NCBI RefSeq assembly: GCF_021117365.1
Contig: NZ_CP088262.1
Location: forward strand, 558,001-622,000
Direction: 5' to 3'
Origin: Nocardioides sp. cx-173
GTDB taxonomy: Bacteria > Actinomycetota > Actinomycetes > Propionibacteriales > Nocardioidaceae
Length of the DNA stretch: 64,000 nucleotides
The notes beneath the pieces are model-generated. The model made no database searches and was not told the DNA's origin. It saw only the letters and a list, made by a program, of their open reading frames with translations. The translations under genes were made by a program, and so were the position numbers. Positions 723-6,267 of the stretch are shown here, piece after piece (position 1 is the stretch's first letter; every line of letters begins with the position of its first letter).

Positions 723-3700
723 GTGCGCACCGCCGTCCTGGGACCCGTCGAGGTCCACGCCGGCGACCGGATCGTCGACCTCGGCACGCGGCGCCAGCGC
801 GCCATCGTCGCCGGGCTCGCCCTCGCCGACGGGACGCCTGTGGCCAGCGAGACGCTGATCGCCCGGGTCTGGGGGGCCGATCCGCCGCCGGGGGCGCTCG
901 CCACGCTGCACGGGTACGTCGCCGGGCTGCGCCGCAGCCTCGAGCCGGACCGGGCGCCGCGCGAGTCGCCCCGGGTGCTGGTGACCGTGGAGAGCGGCTA
1001 CGCGCTGCGGACGCCGCGCGAGGGGCGCGACGACCACGCGGTGGAGCGCGCGGTCGCCGAGGCTCGCGCGCTCCTGCGCGCCGTACCCGACCACCTGCGC
1101 CCGCGCACCGATGCCGCCGGCGCCGCGGCGGTCACCGAGGCCCTTGTCGGACTGGACCACGTCGTCGGCCTGTGGCGCGGGGAGCCGTACCCCGAGCTCG
1201 GCGAGGACCCCGCGGCCGAGGCCGAGCGGGCTCGCCTGAGAGACCTGAATGCGTCGGCCCAGGAGCTGCGCGTGGTGGCGCGGATGGCCCTCGGTCGCCA
1301 TGTCGAGGTGGTGCCGGAGCTCGCGGCGAAGACCACCGAGCACCCGCTCCACGAACGGTGGTGGGCGCTGCTCGCCGTGGCGCTCGCCCGCAGTGGTCGG
1401 CAGGCCGAGGCCCTGCAGTCGCTGCAGTCGCTGCGTGCGCTCCTGGCCGACGAGCTGGGCGTCGACCCGAGCCCGCCGGTCCGCGAGCTGCACACGGCCA
1501 TCCTGCGGCAGGACCCCTCCCTGGGCTGGTCCCGTGCGCCCTCGTCGGCGCTTCCGGTCCGCGGCGCCGGGCCGCCGATGGAGGCCCGCCCGTCGCACTT
1601 CCGCGAGTCACCGCCGGTGCCGCGCTGGCCTCTGGCCGGCCGGTCCGAGGAGACCCACCGCCTGGGCGAGGTCGTCACCGACGTGATCGCCGGCCGCCCG
1701 CACGTCGTCCTGCTCACGGGGGAGGCGGGCGTCGGCAAGTCCCGGCTCGCGCTCGAGCTCTCGCTGAGTGCGTTCGAGCAGGGCTTCACGGTCGCCGTCG
1801 GACAGTGCTCGGCGGACGGCCCACCACCGCTGTGGCCGTGGCGGGTCATCGCGCGGAGCCTGGCCGACCAGCTGGCCGACGCCCCCGAGGTCGTCGGTCT
1901 GCTCGACACCGCACCCGCCGACGACTTCGCCACGTGGGACGCGGTCGCCGGGGCGCTGTGCGACGCGGCCAGCGCGCACCCACTGCTCCTGGTGCTGGAG
2001 GACGTCCAGTGGGCCGACGAGCCGACCCGACGGCTGCTGGTGCACCTGCAGTCCGTCGTGCGTCACCAGCGCCTGTGCGTGGTCGTCACCGCGCGCTTGG
2101 ACGGCGCCACGGATCGGGTGGTGGGTGACCTCGCGGCCGCGCTGGCGCGGGGGCAGACCACGCGCCTCGACCTGGACGGGCTGGATGTCGACGCCGCGGG
2201 CGACCTCGTCGCCGCGGTCGCCGGGAGCGTCCACCGGGACACCGTGCGCGACCTGTGGGAGCGCGCCGCCGGCAACCCGTTCTTCCTCACCGAGCTGGCA
2301 CTGTCCGGCGGCGCACTGTCGGGATCGCTCTCGGACGTGGTCCTGAGCCGCGTGCGGGCACTGCCCGACGACACGGTCCGGCTGCTCGAGGCGGCCTCGG
2401 TCATCGACATCGTCGTCGACCTCGACCTGCTCAGCCTGATGACCGGGCGCAGCGACACCGAGACCGCGCAGCTGCTGGCCCCGGCTCTGGCAACCGGCCT
2501 GGTGGTCGACGAGGGCCGGGTCAACGCGGCGTACCGCTTCTCCCACGGGGTCGTGCGCGAGGCGGTCCACGCGCACCAGCCCCAGCACACCCGGGCCGCG
2601 TGGCACCGGGCGGTGAGCCAGGTGCTCGAGCGCCGCTCCGGGCTGCGGCGCCCCGACCAGCGCGCGGCGCTGGCGCACCACTGGGAGCTCGCGGGCTACG
2701 GCTGGGTCGGCGAGGCCTGGCGCTCGGTGCTCGTGGCCGCCGAGCAGGCGCGGCTGGACGGCGCCTACGACGAGGAGGCCCGCCTGCTGCGCCGCGCCGT
2801 CGGGTGGCAGGAGCTCGACATCGGCAGCGGCGACGGCGAGCGCTTCGAGCTGCTCATCCTCCTCGCGGAGGCGTGCCGCTGGAGCGCGGACTGGCAGGGC
2901 GTCTCGGACGCCGTGGACGAGGCCGTGGTCGTGGCCGAGCGACTGGGGGACCCGAGGCTGGCGGCCCGGGCCGCGATCTCGACGATGGAGGGCGCCCTGT
3001 GGCAGGTGCGCCCCTACGGCACGGTGCACCACCCCATCGTGGAGGCGCTCGAGCGCGCTCTCCTCGCCCTGCCGGCCACGGAGCCCGGCCTGCGCTGCCG
3101 GGCGCTGCTGGCGCTGGCGATGGAGCTCTACTACGGCGGCGACCAGGCCCGCATCGACGCTCTGGTCGAGGAGGCACTGGCCATCGCCGACGGCGAGCAG
3201 GAGCCCCGGCTGTGCGCCACCGCCTACCTCGGCGCCTTCTCCGCGCGCGCTCGCGCCGACGCCGCAGCCGATCGCGCGCGCTACGTCGTGGTCGCCCGCG
3301 AGGCGGCGGATGCCGTCGGGGACGGCCGCCTCCGGCTCCTGGCCGATGCCCTGGGGGCGTCGGTGGCCAGCGAGCTCGGGGACGTGGCGACCGTGCGGGA
3401 CGCCCTTCCACGGCTGAGTGACCAGTGTCGACGACGGGGGCTGGCCACGGCCGAGGCGTTCCTGCGGGTGCTCGAGGTCCCGTGGCTGACCATGTGGGGC
3501 GACCTCGATCAGGCCGATGCCTCGCTGGCCCGGCTCGGCGAGCTCGCGCAGCGGCTGCGGATGCCCAACCTGGCCGACGCGCTCACCGTCACCACCGTGG
3601 CCCGCTCCATGCTGGCAGGCGAGTACGAGCAGGTGGCCCAGGCCATGGCCGACTTCGTCGCCGACACCACCATCCCCGCGGGCCCCGTGGCCGTGGTGGT

Positions 3701-4073
3701 GCTGCTGCGTGCCGGGCAGCGGGACCTGGCCCGGGCGCTGCACGGTCACCAGGGCGTCGACCTGACCGACGCGACGTACGTCGGTCTCGTCAACGCCTGC
3801 CTGGCGTGCGAGATCGCCCTCGGGCTTGACGACCGCGAGCTCGCGGCGCGCGCCTACCCGCTCGCGGCGCCCTACGCGGGACGCATGTGCACGGCGGGCA
3901 GCGCCGTGCCGATCGGCCCGGTCGACACCTTCCTGGCCTGGGGGGCGAAGGCTCTCGGGAAGGACCAGGCGGCGTCGGCCCACGCCGACGATGCCGTGGT
4001 CCTCGCCCGCGCGTGGGGCCTGTCGCGGGTGGAGTCGGAGCTCTTGGAGACGCGGCGGCGCTACACCGTCTGA
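723..4073 (+). CDS. SARP/AfsR-type transcriptional regulator with AAA ATPase and repeat C-terminus
   Basis: A 1116-residue regulator. Residues about 1-90 form an OmpR/PhoB-type winged helix as in SARP proteins (VWGADPPPGALATLHGYVAGLR). About 105-255 is a bacterial transcriptional activation domain ending in LLADELGVDPSPPVRELH. About 305-650 is an AAA_16-type ATPase with Walker A GEAGVGKS at 333-340 and Walker B LLLVLEDVQWADE. The rest is TPR-like helical repeats. Such proteins switch on secondary-metabolism or stress genes through ATP-dependent signalling; the targets here are unknown. It stands alone, and the stop codon lies inside the right target half of the IS110 insertion. Confidence 0.9.
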   Translation: MRTAVLGPVEVHAGDRIVDLGTRRQRAIVAGLALADGTPVASETLIARVWGADPPPGALATLHGYVAGLRRSLEPDRAPRESPRVLVTVESGYALRTPREGRDDHAVERAVAEARALLRAVPDHLRPRTDAAGAAAVTEALVGLDHVVGLWRGEPYPELGEDPAAEAERARLRDLNASAQELRVVARMALGRHVEVVPELAAKTTEHPLHERWWALLAVALARSGRQAEALQSLQSLRALLADELGVDPSPPVRELHTAILRQDPSLGWSRAPSSALPVRGAGPPMEARPSHFRESPPVPRWPLAGRSEETHRLGEVVTDVIAGRPHVVLLTGEAGVGKSRLALELSLSAFEQGFTVAVGQCSADGPPPLWPWRVIARSLADQLADAPEVVGLLDTAPADDFATWDAVAGALCDAASAHPLLLVLEDVQWADEPTRRLLVHLQSVVRHQRLCVVVTARLDGATDRVVGDLAAALARGQTTRLDLDGLDVDAAGDLVAAVAGSVHRDTVRDLWERAAGNPFFLTELALSGGALSGSLSDVVLSRVRALPDDTVRLLEAASVIDIVVDLDLLSLMTGRSDTETAQLLAPALATGLVVDEGRVNAAYRFSHGVVREAVHAHQPQHTRAAWHRAVSQVLERRSGLRRPDQRAALAHHWELAGYGWVGEAWRSVLVAAEQARLDGAYDEEARLLRRAVGWQELDIGSGDGERFELLILLAEACRWSADWQGVSDAVDEAVVVAERLGDPRLAARAAISTMEGALWQVRPYGTVHHPIVEALERALLALPATEPGLRCRALLALAMELYYGGDQARIDALVEEALAIADGEQEPRLCATAYLGAFSARARADAAADRARYVVVAREAADAVGDGRLRLLADALGASVASELGDVATVRDALPRLSDQCRRRGLATAEAFLRVLEVPWLTMWGDLDQADASLARLGELAQRLRMPNLADALTVTTVARSMLAGEYEQVAQAMADFVADTTIPAGPVAVVVLLRAGQRDLARALHGHQGVDLTDATYVGLVNACLACEIALGLDDRELAARAYPLAAPYAGRMCTAGSAVPIGPVDTFLAWGAKALGKDQAASAHADDAVVLARAWGLSRVESELLETRRRYTV

Positions 4074-4083
4074 CAGCCCTATG

Positions 4084-5298
4084 TCAAGCAGCCTCCTTGG
4101 TGATGAGGCTGAGCCGGCCGTGTAGGTCGGGGTTGTAGGGCACTTGGTCGTGCCAGCAGCGCCAGAGGATCCTGGTCCAGGCTTGGGCCAGGATCCTTGC
4201 CGCGTGGGGGTGGCGGCAGCCGCGCTGGCGGGCGCGGTCGTAGGTATCGCGGGCCCAGGCGTTGGCGCGCGGGGTGTCTTGAGCCCAGTCGATGAGCGCG
4301 GCGCGGAGAGTCTTGTTGCAGCCGCGTCGGTAGGCGACGTTGAGGTGTTTGCCGGACTGTCTGGTTGAGGGTGCGACCCCGGCGGCTGCGGCGAGCGCGG
4401 CGGCATCTGGGAAGCGGGCGCGGCAGTCGCCAATCTCGGCCAGGAGGGTTGCGGCGCGCACGGTTCCAGCGCGTGGGAGGGACTGGAAGATCGGGCCGTC
4501 GGGGTGCGCGAGGAGCGCTTCCTTGATCCGGGTCTCGAGGATCGATTGCTGTTCGCGGAGCTTGCTGAGCAGGTCGACCAGGGTGAGTACGACGAGTTCG
4601 CTGGCTTCGGCTGCTGGGCCGCTCACGCGTCCGGTGGCTGCGTTGCGCAGGTGGTCGACGAGATCGGCGGCGCTCTGGCGACCGCAGTAGCCATTGGCCT
4701 TGAGCCAGTGCGCCATTCGAAGCTGGGACAGCCACGCGGCCTTGGCTTCGGTCGGGAACCGGCGCAAGAACGCCAGGCTGATACCGATGTCGAGCTGGCT
4801 GAACAGTCCGATCGCTCCGGGGAAGTTGTGCTGCAACACCGCCAACAGCTGGTTATGCACCGCAATCCGGTGATCGATCAAGTCGTGACGCGAACGCACC
4901 AGCATCCGCAACGCGATCGTCTCCTCGGTATCGGGTTGTACAACCGCCCAGCGTGCGGTGTCGGTGCGTAAGGCGTCGGCCAGGACAAACGCGTCGAACC
5001 GGTCGTCCTTGTTGCCTGCACTGCCGTAGCGCGCACGTAGCGACTTCACTTGACGCGCCGAGATCACCACGACCTCGAATCCGTCGCGGATCAGATGCTC
5101 GACCACCGGCCCGTCGCCACGTTCGATCCCGACCTGGGCCACGCCGTGACGGCGCAGCAAGGTCGTGATCTTGCCCAGTCCCGGCTTCGAGTGCGGGAGC
5201 GTGACTTCCTCGATGCGCTGCCCATCGTCATCGACGATGCACAACGCGTGGTGCTGCCAGGACCAGTCGATCCCAGCGAAAGTGGGCGTAGCCTCCAT
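4084..5298 (-). CDS. IS110 family transposase (DEDD recombinase)
   Basis: 404 residues from the ATG at 5298, which has AAGGAG about 6-7 bases upstream. The N-terminal RuvC-like DEDD domain begins AGIDWSWQHHALCIVDDDG and includes IERGDG and GNKDDRFDAFVLADALR. The C-terminal transposase_20 part contains LPRAGTVRAATLLAEIGD, the ALAAAAGVAPSTRQSG stretch and the Ser/Tyr region. In the family this enzyme cuts and pastes the element as a circle, guided by an RNA from the element's end. The reading frame is intact, so the element may be active. Confidence 0.95.
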   Translation of the reverse strand: MEATPTFAGIDWSWQHHALCIVDDDGQRIEEVTLPHSKPGLGKITTLLRRHGVAQVGIERGDGPVVEHLIRDGFEVVVISARQVKSLRARYGSAGNKDDRFDAFVLADALRTDTARWAVVQPDTEETIALRMLVRSRHDLIDHRIAVHNQLLAVLQHNFPGAIGLFSQLDIGISLAFLRRFPTEAKAAWLSQLRMAHWLKANGYCGRQSAADLVDHLRNAATGRVSGPAAEASELVVLTLVDLLSKLREQQSILETRIKEALLAHPDGPIFQSLPRAGTVRAATLLAEIGDCRARFPDAAALAAAAGVAPSTRQSGKHLNVAYRRGCNKTLRAALIDWAQDTPRANAWARDTYDRARQRGCRHPHAARILAQAWTRILWRCWHDQVPYNPDLHGRLSLITKEAA

Positions 5299-5523
5299 GA
5301 TTAGTGCTCCTTCCGTATAGCCCACGGAATCAGCACTCCGGCCCCGGGACGTGACGGCCGGTTGGTCACTGCGGCACTCGCGGTGCAAAGCCCTATGGCC
5401 GGTCTGCACGTCCCGGGCCACCAGGCCCTGCAACTGTCAGCCAGGTCCTCACCAAGGCGGGACTGCGTCAGTTCGGCAGTGACCTAGCAGCACCGGGGTG
5501 CAGACAAGGCATACGCCTGTCTG
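5299..5523 (-). ncRNA. Candidate IS110 bridge RNA (left-end guide RNA)
   Basis: Read on the transposase strand, this stretch opens with a hairpin (arms 5515-5523 and 5501-5510). A middle section follows, then a large stem-loop with a perfect 11-base stem (5407-5417 with 5343-5353). This matches the known plan of a 5' stem-loop, target loop and donor loop. The middle part contains TAGGTC (5481-5486) and CTGACAG (5434-5440), matching the two flanks of this insertion. The second loop contains CATAGGGCT (5389-5397), identical to the element's right end (4075-4083). The right donor guide was not located. Boundaries are approximate. Confidence 0.55.
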
Positions 5524-5547
5524 AGACCTACGGTCCACCAGTGACCG

Positions 5548-6267
5548 TCAGGCACCCACCCCCTCGGGGACGAAGGCGAAGGCAGCCCGCTCCAGGCGGT
5601 GGAACCGGCCCCGGCCCAACCACAGCACCACCCGGAACGGCGGGCCGGCCGCGGTCAGCAACCCGGACGCCACCTGCGGCGGGAGGCCCTCCAGGCACCA
5701 GGGCACCAGGCGAAGCAGGTCGCGCGGCCCCAGCCCGCCGCGGAACTTGGCCCGCTCCACCCGTGCCCACTCGTCACCGGGCACGTAGCGCTGCAGGATC
5801 GCGATCGCATCACGCTCCTCGTGGCCGAGGTGGGCGCCGAGCAGCTCGCGGACCTGCTCGAGGTCGGCCACGAGCCCGTGCCGGCCGGTCTCGGACGGCC
5901 CGCCGGCCAGCGACTTGAAGCCGCTGCGCACGGCCTCCAGCAGTGGGTCGATCCTGGCGTGCTCGTCCTCCATCGCGTCCAGCACCCGCGCCCCCTCGGC
6001 ATCCCCGCTCGCGTCGACCCTGCCCCGTAACAAGGGCCAGAGGTGCTCGTCCTCCTTGTGGTGGTGGTCGTGGAGCAGCAGGGCGAACAGGTCCCACCTC
6101 TCCAGGAGGGCCTGCCAGGTCCCGGCCTGGGACAGGGGCGTGCGGAGGACGGCCTCGTGGAACCGGGCCAGGTCGCGCCGGAAGCCGTGGTGCAGCGCGT
6201 ACATCATCGACAGGTCGGCGGGCCCCTCGGGCGCGGCCGCCTGGCCGGGGAGCAGGTGCGCGGTCAC
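5548..6267 (-). CDS. Hemerythrin-like domain protein
   Basis: 239 residues, starting with GTG at 6267, which overlaps the stop of the SRPBCC gene as GTGA. Residues about 28-170 look like a hemerythrin HHE four-helix bundle, with metal-ligand motifs LHHGFRRDL, LLLHDHHHKEDEHLWPLL, MEDEHARIDPLLE and LGHEERDAI. Such domains bind a non-haem di-iron centre that senses or carries oxygen. The C-terminal 65 residues are basic and hydrophobic with no clear family. Coupling to the SRPBCC gene suggests joint expression; the role is not known. Confidence 0.8.
   Translation of the reverse strand: MTAHLLPGQAAAPEGPADLSMMYALHHGFRRDLARFHEAVLRTPLSQAGTWQALLERWDLFALLLHDHHHKEDEHLWPLLRGRVDASGDAEGARVLDAMEDEHARIDPLLEAVRSGFKSLAGGPSETGRHGLVADLEQVRELLGAHLGHEERDAIAILQRYVPGDEWARVERAKFRGGLGPRDLLRLVPWCLEGLPPQVASGLLTAAGPPFRVVLWLGRGRFHRLERAAFAFVPEGVGA

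Follow-up and report, generated by a model that had tools for sequence, protein, structure and literature searches.

The guide RNA of an insertion element of soil actinobacteria appears to carry the stop codons of both genes that flank its landing site, sparing both. The element belongs to the IS110 group, and its long non-coding left end is, judged from its sequence, the coding region of a bridge RNA with a target and a donor loop. Overall, we consider it highly probable that this RNA holds the circle junction in its donor loop and a host target made of two convergent stop codons in its target loop. The element lies in a stretch of 64,000 nucleotides from Nocardioides sp. cx-173, which as a whole is called the window below and to which all positions refer. 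With the GT core counted once it covers 1,471 bp (4075..5545, minus strand), its ends being taken from four genomic copies and from relatives. The recombinase and the RNA are arranged as follows:

4084..5298, minus strand: IS110 recombinase, 404 aa
5340..5523, minus strand: bridge RNA, 5' end provisionally placed at the hairpin
5501..5523, minus strand: 5' hairpin of the fold
5476..5490, minus strand: target-loop stem, 5' arm, which holds TAGGTC (helix 2, 97.9% of cells paired)
5418..5431, minus strand: target-loop stem, 3' arm (helix 2)
5407..5417, minus strand: donor-loop stem, 5' arm (helix 3)
5343..5353, minus strand: donor-loop stem, 3' arm (helix 3)

The recombinase frame is intact in the window, ends 9 bases from the right core and contains both the DEDD (PF01548) and the Tnp (PF02371) domain; it also exceeds the cut-off of the model NF033542 'IS110 family RNA-guided transposase' (176.1 bits vs. 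140). D11, E59, D99 and D102 as well as the serine in RQSGK were picked by eye from the translation beside the published, unaligned IS621 residues. The same protein gave a sub-threshold match to a TIGR-Tas RNA-guided endonuclease model (47.5 bits, cut-off 100). Four copies of the element exist in the genome (L001-L004), the one in the window being copy 2 (L002); L001 to L003 are identical across the 1,465 bases searched and L004 is shorter by one base. At the left end of L004 (G000:C1:3681790) a 14-bp tandem duplication was observed (GTCACTGGTGGACC, i.e. the core plus the first 12 left-end bases), and the right end of the relative L018 shows a tandem duplication of GGCTTGACACAGGGC around 3199-3230. 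Close relatives (L006-L013, L059, L077) come from Nocardioides, Aeromicrobium, Amycolatopsis, Cellulosimicrobium and a Micrococcales bin. L117 and L116 (genomes G141 and G045) share element ends and flanks with L009 (Nocardioides ganghwensis) and L006 (Nocardioides sp. Root122), respectively, and were left uncounted as repeats of these. Several copies sit at contig ends or contig joins (L006/L116, L122, L125), hence element counts in draft genomes are lower bounds. Candidate mini-elements were rejected, as the right-end fragments in G108, G008 and G045 lead to contig ends or a contig join. All 1,151 matching plasmid records showed less than 60% identity.

An initial annotation of this DNA had proposed a working bridge RNA with a new target specificity. 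Of this proposal, the bridge RNA and its two loops hold. The annotation had correctly identified the left donor guide and came close for the right target guide, whereas its left end, core and left target guide had to be replaced. The 5' hairpin (5523-5501) and the perfect 11-bp arms (5417-5407 / 5353-5343) are present as described there. None of 200 shuffles of 5299-5523 (minus strand) folds as well as the actual sequence (z -3.67). The consensus fold of 27 left ends comprises 38 pairs, in 22 of which both partners vary; in this alignment, from which the fold was itself derived and which therefore favours it, 96.8% of cells are paired, and 0/500 shuffles were as good. When the arms are slid by 1-3 columns, pairing falls to 31.6-45.1%. 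A check was made with the covariance model R1, built from 16 relatives, none of which belongs to the >80% clade (L014 and L015 share the two-stop habit). This model, a test already suggested in the annotation, finds the window at 5503-5340 on the minus strand with 100.1 bits (E 3e-18; next match E 0.97), and among the 150 of 9,595 first-look candidates that were scored in the genome it recovers the four element copies only. Rfam gave no window match at gathering thresholds.

The left end had been placed at 5523, with 5524-5543 read as host flank. According to the four copies and the relatives, the end lies approximately 22 bp further out: 5524-5543 recurs in all four genomic copies, where identity continues to GTCACTGGTGGACCGTAGGTCT, and L006-L013, L059 and L077 carry closely similar STCACTGGTGGAC at their left end, preceded by unrelated host DNA where any remains. 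Thus, the supposed flank is present in every copy and close relative read. It is absent from IS-free syntenic gene pairs, which were obtained by searching the joined flanks of the own insertion sites in 215 genomes of the genus. This search gave element-free convergent pairs for copy 1 (L145, L146), copy 3 (L175, L176) and copy 4 (L148-L151, L154, L156, L160, L162, L170), with a short gap between the stops; pairs were read for these three copies, none for copy 2, the window's own. They are too diverged to place the crossover at base level, and no base-exact empty site was seen among them. In another genome (L157/L234), the end of the right-hand gene of copy 3 holds the predicted target CTGACGGTCAGCGG in element-free form, with open frames of 141 and 380 codons on its two sides. 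An origin of the shared left 'flank' from a repeat in the genome was rejected, as the four exact matches all lie at IS copies; with three mismatches two genome matches appear, one of which is the duplication in copy 4. A joint of right and left end was found neither in 394 genomes, where the pattern required GGTSBACC and hence misses left ends with GGTGGACG, nor in the viral contigs searched.

The guides and cores were assigned as follows:

5466..5471, minus strand: left target guide (LTG) CUGACG
5436..5442, minus strand: right target guide (RTG) GGCUGAC
5434..5435, minus strand: target-loop handshake guide AG
5389..5397, minus strand: left donor guide (LDG) CAUAGGGCU
5365..5371, minus strand: right donor guide (RDG) CAGUGAC
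5544..5545, minus strand: left core GT
4073..4074, minus strand: right core GT

For the comparison of guides with flanks and ends, 85 loci were tried (the four own copies, L006-L085 and L118). Eleven were dropped without a left end or RDG fitting the patterns ([CG]TCA[CT]TG; CAGTGA[GC] or CAATTGAG), and 60 of the remaining 74 have a right core, recognised as CTC or GTC at a fixed spacing from TTGACA. Since these patterns pre-fix most of the RDG/left-end pairing as well as t8-t10, only the core base and the positions from t11 onward are free tests. Among the dropped loci, L031, L056, L073 and L081 combine the left end CTCATTG with the RDG CAATGAG, which is a matched change, and L050 and L068 combine this RDG with CTCACTG, i.e. 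with one mismatch; L061 has no clear left end, and L062, L063, L069 and L082 are cut or degenerate. In 13 of the 14 loci without a right core the right end is cut off or unrecognised; L041 was lost to the filter because its flank reads CTGGGAG. The own copies share one RNA, and the same-genome copies L007/L013 and L042/L045/L047 were counted separately. For copy 4, the left flank was taken from before its 14-bp duplication. The window's clade, delimited after RNAs and flanks were seen, consists of the own copies, L006-L015, L059, L077 and L118.

The core is GT in the window's element (5545-5544 and 4074-4073), not CT as annotated before. Members of the wider group, mostly with about 50-55% protein identity, have N-CT-CACTGG at the left end and GACACAGGGCNN-CT-CA at the right, so that the dinucleotide common to both ends is the ST of STCA. 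Left and right core agree at all 60 loci with both read, 55 with CT and 5 with GT. The latter are the four own copies and L059, and L084 has GT on the left with its right side unread, so that the evidence for GT cores comes from three different elements (that of the window, L059 and L084). According to PMC11208158 and PMC11208160, IS621 tolerates a GT core with lower efficiency.

The RTG co-varies with the right flank. Its 7 nt ending at 5436 reach a mean of 6.75/7 at the 60 loci compared to 5.09 after shuffling (0/5000; the shuffles behind all guide statistics ignore relatedness), and at the filter-free positions t12-t14 the values are 2.77/3 and 1.33 (0/5000, n=60). Over t8-t14, 48/60 loci match at 7/7 and 16/18 distinct guides have such a locus; the worst locus is L066 with 4/7, and the own copies score 7, 6, 6 and 7. 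Counted by position over t8-t14, the wider group gives 43, 43, 43, 42, 41, 41 and 41 matches of 43, and 8/43 at the next position. At L041, with the flank CTGGGAG instead of the expected CTGAGAG, a non-UGA guide matched 6/7. The sequence CTGACAG (5440-5434), previously noted as complementary to the right flank, is located there but is composite: CTGAC is part of the RTG, and AG is the handshake guide for the element's own right end, which follows the RTG and explains why the longer match was seen. The first handshake base pairs with d7 at 59/60 loci (30.4 shuffled, 0/10000) and the second with d6 at 34/60 (17.9 shuffled, 0/10000). For the donor loop, the handshake base shows a weak relation to t7 (59/73 vs. 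55.7 shuffled, 103/10000) and the second base no signal (38/73 vs. 37.2 shuffled).

The LDG had already been correctly recognised (CATAGGGCT, 5397-5389). It is identical to the right end (4083-4075), its one variable base equals that of the right end at 60/60 loci, and it does not run on through the core. The RDG, reported before as not found, was missed because left end, core and left target guide were wrong; CAGUGAC pairs with GTCACTG (5545-5539). Among the loci, CAGUGA-C/G pairs 7/7 with the core and five left-end bases in 73/74, which is not a free test, since this motif had served to find the loci; only the last base provides one, and it tracks the core (GT/C 6/6, CT/G 68/68). The agreement of the LTG is modest. 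Across the wider group it stands before CU, with the best agreement at t6 (35/55) and t7 (47/55). In the window's clade it has the form CUGANN without a core match, and the two bases after CTGA match the left flank in 24/32 cells compared to 15.1 after shuffling (5/5000, 16 loci); its distance to the core varies from 2 to 6 nt, and own copy 1 fits only with one spacer base allowed. With a fixed register, the best value in this clade (3.94 vs. 3.48, 12/1000) is not significant alone because eleven registers were tried; in the wider group the best register gave 3.16 vs. 2.80 (6/2000) and the next 2.02 vs. 1.62 (1/2000). Taken together, co-variation with flanks or ends over 60-74 loci, the comparison the annotation had called for, is seen for the RTG, the LDG, the core base and the handshake base, and is modest for the LTG.

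The insertion in the window left the stop codons of both flanking genes intact:

5548..5550, minus strand: TGA stop codon of the left gene (hemerythrin domain)
4071..4073, plus strand: TGA stop codon of the right gene (BTAD-domain regulator)

Read from the flanks, the target has the form CTGA-N2-6-STCAG and comprises the stops of two convergent genes, which gives the postulated new specificity a content beyond the original claim; in effect, each of the two target guides copies a gene end. UGA stands at the same RTG position in 70/74 loci. Among 56 loci with at least 400 bases of right flank, the right TCA terminates a reverse frame of 100 or more open codons in 41, compared to 23% of 506 STCA sites elsewhere in these flanks; this test is lenient in GC-rich DNA, where other frames are often open, too. 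All 15 failing loci lie outside the window's clade, in which 16/16 testable insertions have the right stop. Moreover, 16/16 insertions of the clade vs. 1/52 outside have, 2-6 nt ahead of the core, a TGA that terminates a left frame of 100 or more open codons; L015 has TTGA, the others CTGA, and L006 is cut by the contig end. More distant relatives mostly have the right stop only. It seems rather likely that an actinobacterial IS110 clade evolved guides as copies of gene ends, i.e. an RTG with the final bases of a gene including its UGA and, in one subclade, also an LTG with UGA that is anchored on the stop of the opposite gene at flexible distance from the core. Insertion between convergent genes would then follow a general landing rule instead of one fixed address.

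A simpler reading would be that the guides recognise STCAG and a little more, and that the placement between stops results from selection against intragenic insertion. We regard this as possible, although distinctly the less probable reading. The motif alone is enriched at such places, as 5/23 unoccupied CTGAN2-4CTCAG loci in G146 have long open frames on both sides, and selection would do the rest. Against it stand the left stop within 2-6 nt, which tracks the LTG, the bases after CTGA, which follow this guide, and the loci L029, L055 and L041, where guides without UGA go with targets without TCA. Furthermore, harmless intergenic palindromes were not hit. The genome has 328 CTGAN2-4GTCAG matches vs. 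30 for the reversed pattern, and 21 of the first 30 matches read represent a REP-like palindrome, CGCTGACCCGTCAGAAA(G/C)TTTCTGACGGGTCAGCG. This palindrome and its variants are abundant in G000 (e.g. L178, L183, L191), often as pairs or short arrays between genes, with none in the window. Its CTGACGGGTCAGCG is also the site of copy 3, but there without the other arm. None of the four element copies lies inside this palindrome, and the palindrome copies read in the genome hold no IS; REP targeting was thus rejected, as the four own sites are convergent gene ends. That a palindrome which fits the guides goes unused speaks against our main reading: it may serve badly as a substrate, or convergent gene ends may be preferred for a reason other than the guides.

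Two other versions of the map given above were weighed. The annotated one, with the end at 5523, a CT core, TAGGTC as left target guide and the target TAGGTCTGTCAG, draws on real matches: TAGGTC (5486-5481) is identical to 5525-5530, and the CTGACAG complement exists. Nevertheless, we regard this version as practically untenable. The segment 5524-5543 belongs to four copies and relatives and is absent from syntenic IS-free sites, and TAGGTC lies within the conserved target-loop stem, on its 5' side (5490-5476 with 5431-5418), for which reason its match is best taken as chance. Neither GTAGGTCTGTCAG nor GGTCACTGTCAG, both tried as target, has an exact copy in the genome (2 and 21 one-mismatch sites, respectively). 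A core at the CT beside GGTGG, with the target GGTCACT-GTCAG and the donor ATAGGGCT-GGTGGACC, would correspond to the usual IS110 core, and GGUCACU is present in the RNA. It was dropped after reading the wider group and is very improbable, since the right end of that group lacks CT there (GGGCAACTCA), the RDG CAGUGA-C/G pairs with ST-CACTG and tracks the core base, and the S of STCA is identical on both sides at 60/60 loci. Finally, the element could be a decayed relic with an unused, RNA-like fold. This is hardly credible given an intact recombinase frame, four copies of which three are identical over 1,465 bases and the fourth is one base shorter, and guides that match recent insertion sites. 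That the bridge RNA works is suggested by these near-identical copies and by the co-variation.

Our proposal for guide-directed insertion starts from observed features, namely the element ends, the conserved fold, the co-variation of guides with flanks and the placement at stops; from these we infer transcription, a circle, catalysis and placement by guides and not by selection alone. The excised circle would join right end, GT core and left end as TAGGGCT-GT-CACTGGTGG (in longer form TTGACATAGGGCT-GT-CACTGGTGG), which would place TTGACA upstream of the RNA:

4082..4087, minus strand: TTGACA, candidate -35 box of the circular form

The TGA stop codon of the recombinase itself falls within this box. 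In the joined sequence, TTGACA is followed after 17-18 bases by a NANNNT box, which is GACCGT in the window, and just behind that by the RNA hairpin. This arrangement suggests a promoter reconstituted at the circle junction, as IS621 rebuilds one by joining right end, core and left end (PMC11208160). The donor loop is expected to hold the circle junction via CAUAGGGCU and CAGUGAC, and the target loop the host DNA via CUGACG and GGCUGAC, the host target CTGA-N2-6-GT-CAG being the stops of two convergent genes. The recombinase would then swap strands at GT, helped by pairing of the handshake AG with the incoming donor strand, and the element would end up between the genes with both stop codons whole. 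The predicted pre-insertion sites are CTGAGGCGTCAG for copy 1, CTGACGGTCAG for copy 2, CTGACGGGTCAG for copy 3 and CTGAGCCGGTCAG for copy 4.

Bridge recombinases are under development for genome writing. A natural clade with a strict 7-nt RTG, GT cores and a gene-sparing rule represents new parts for this purpose, and it shows which guide positions evolution holds. If the stop rule is indeed guide-driven, a guide RNA can encode harmlessness to the host. An IS110 clade with stop-codon guides may have an earlier record: among the literature matches listed (titles and abstract openings, for the most part outside subscription journals) no IS110 guides aimed at stop codons were found, and the term 'stop codon' is absent from the main text of PMC11208160 and PMC11187229.

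Comparison with known systems places the element close to IS621 (PMC11208160, PMC11208158). Both have an RNA from the left end with a 5' hairpin, a target and a donor loop, a recombinase of the same family, and LTG, RTG, LDG and RDG in the same order with a handshake base after the RTG. The handshake pairing was described for IS621 (PMC11208158), and here this base co-varies at 59/60 loci. Like the seekRNA of IS1111/IS110 elements (PMC11187229), the RNA derives from the non-coding region upstream of the recombinase gene, which is the IS110 type, unlike the IS1111 arrangement with the RNA downstream. The IS110-group features of a left-end bridge RNA and of two-loop guides matching target and donor around the core are found (the LTG being the weakest), whereas the RNA position of IS1111 and the REP target are not. 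By sequence, the ISCro4 transposase (PDB 9t56) is the sole credible solved relative (E 3.2e-6; two other matches are designed proteins), and a distant one, the significant stretch covering residues 269-394 only. Compared to IS621, the window's element has a GT core, the RTG is strict over 7 nt instead of 4 (some orthologues are longer), the RDG is contiguous instead of discontiguous, the LTG in the window's clade is short, lacks a core match and varies in its distance to the core, and the target is a pair of stop codons instead of a REP. As far as can be judged from sequence comparison, the element works like IS621 and departs from it in core, guide lengths, LTG spacing and target.
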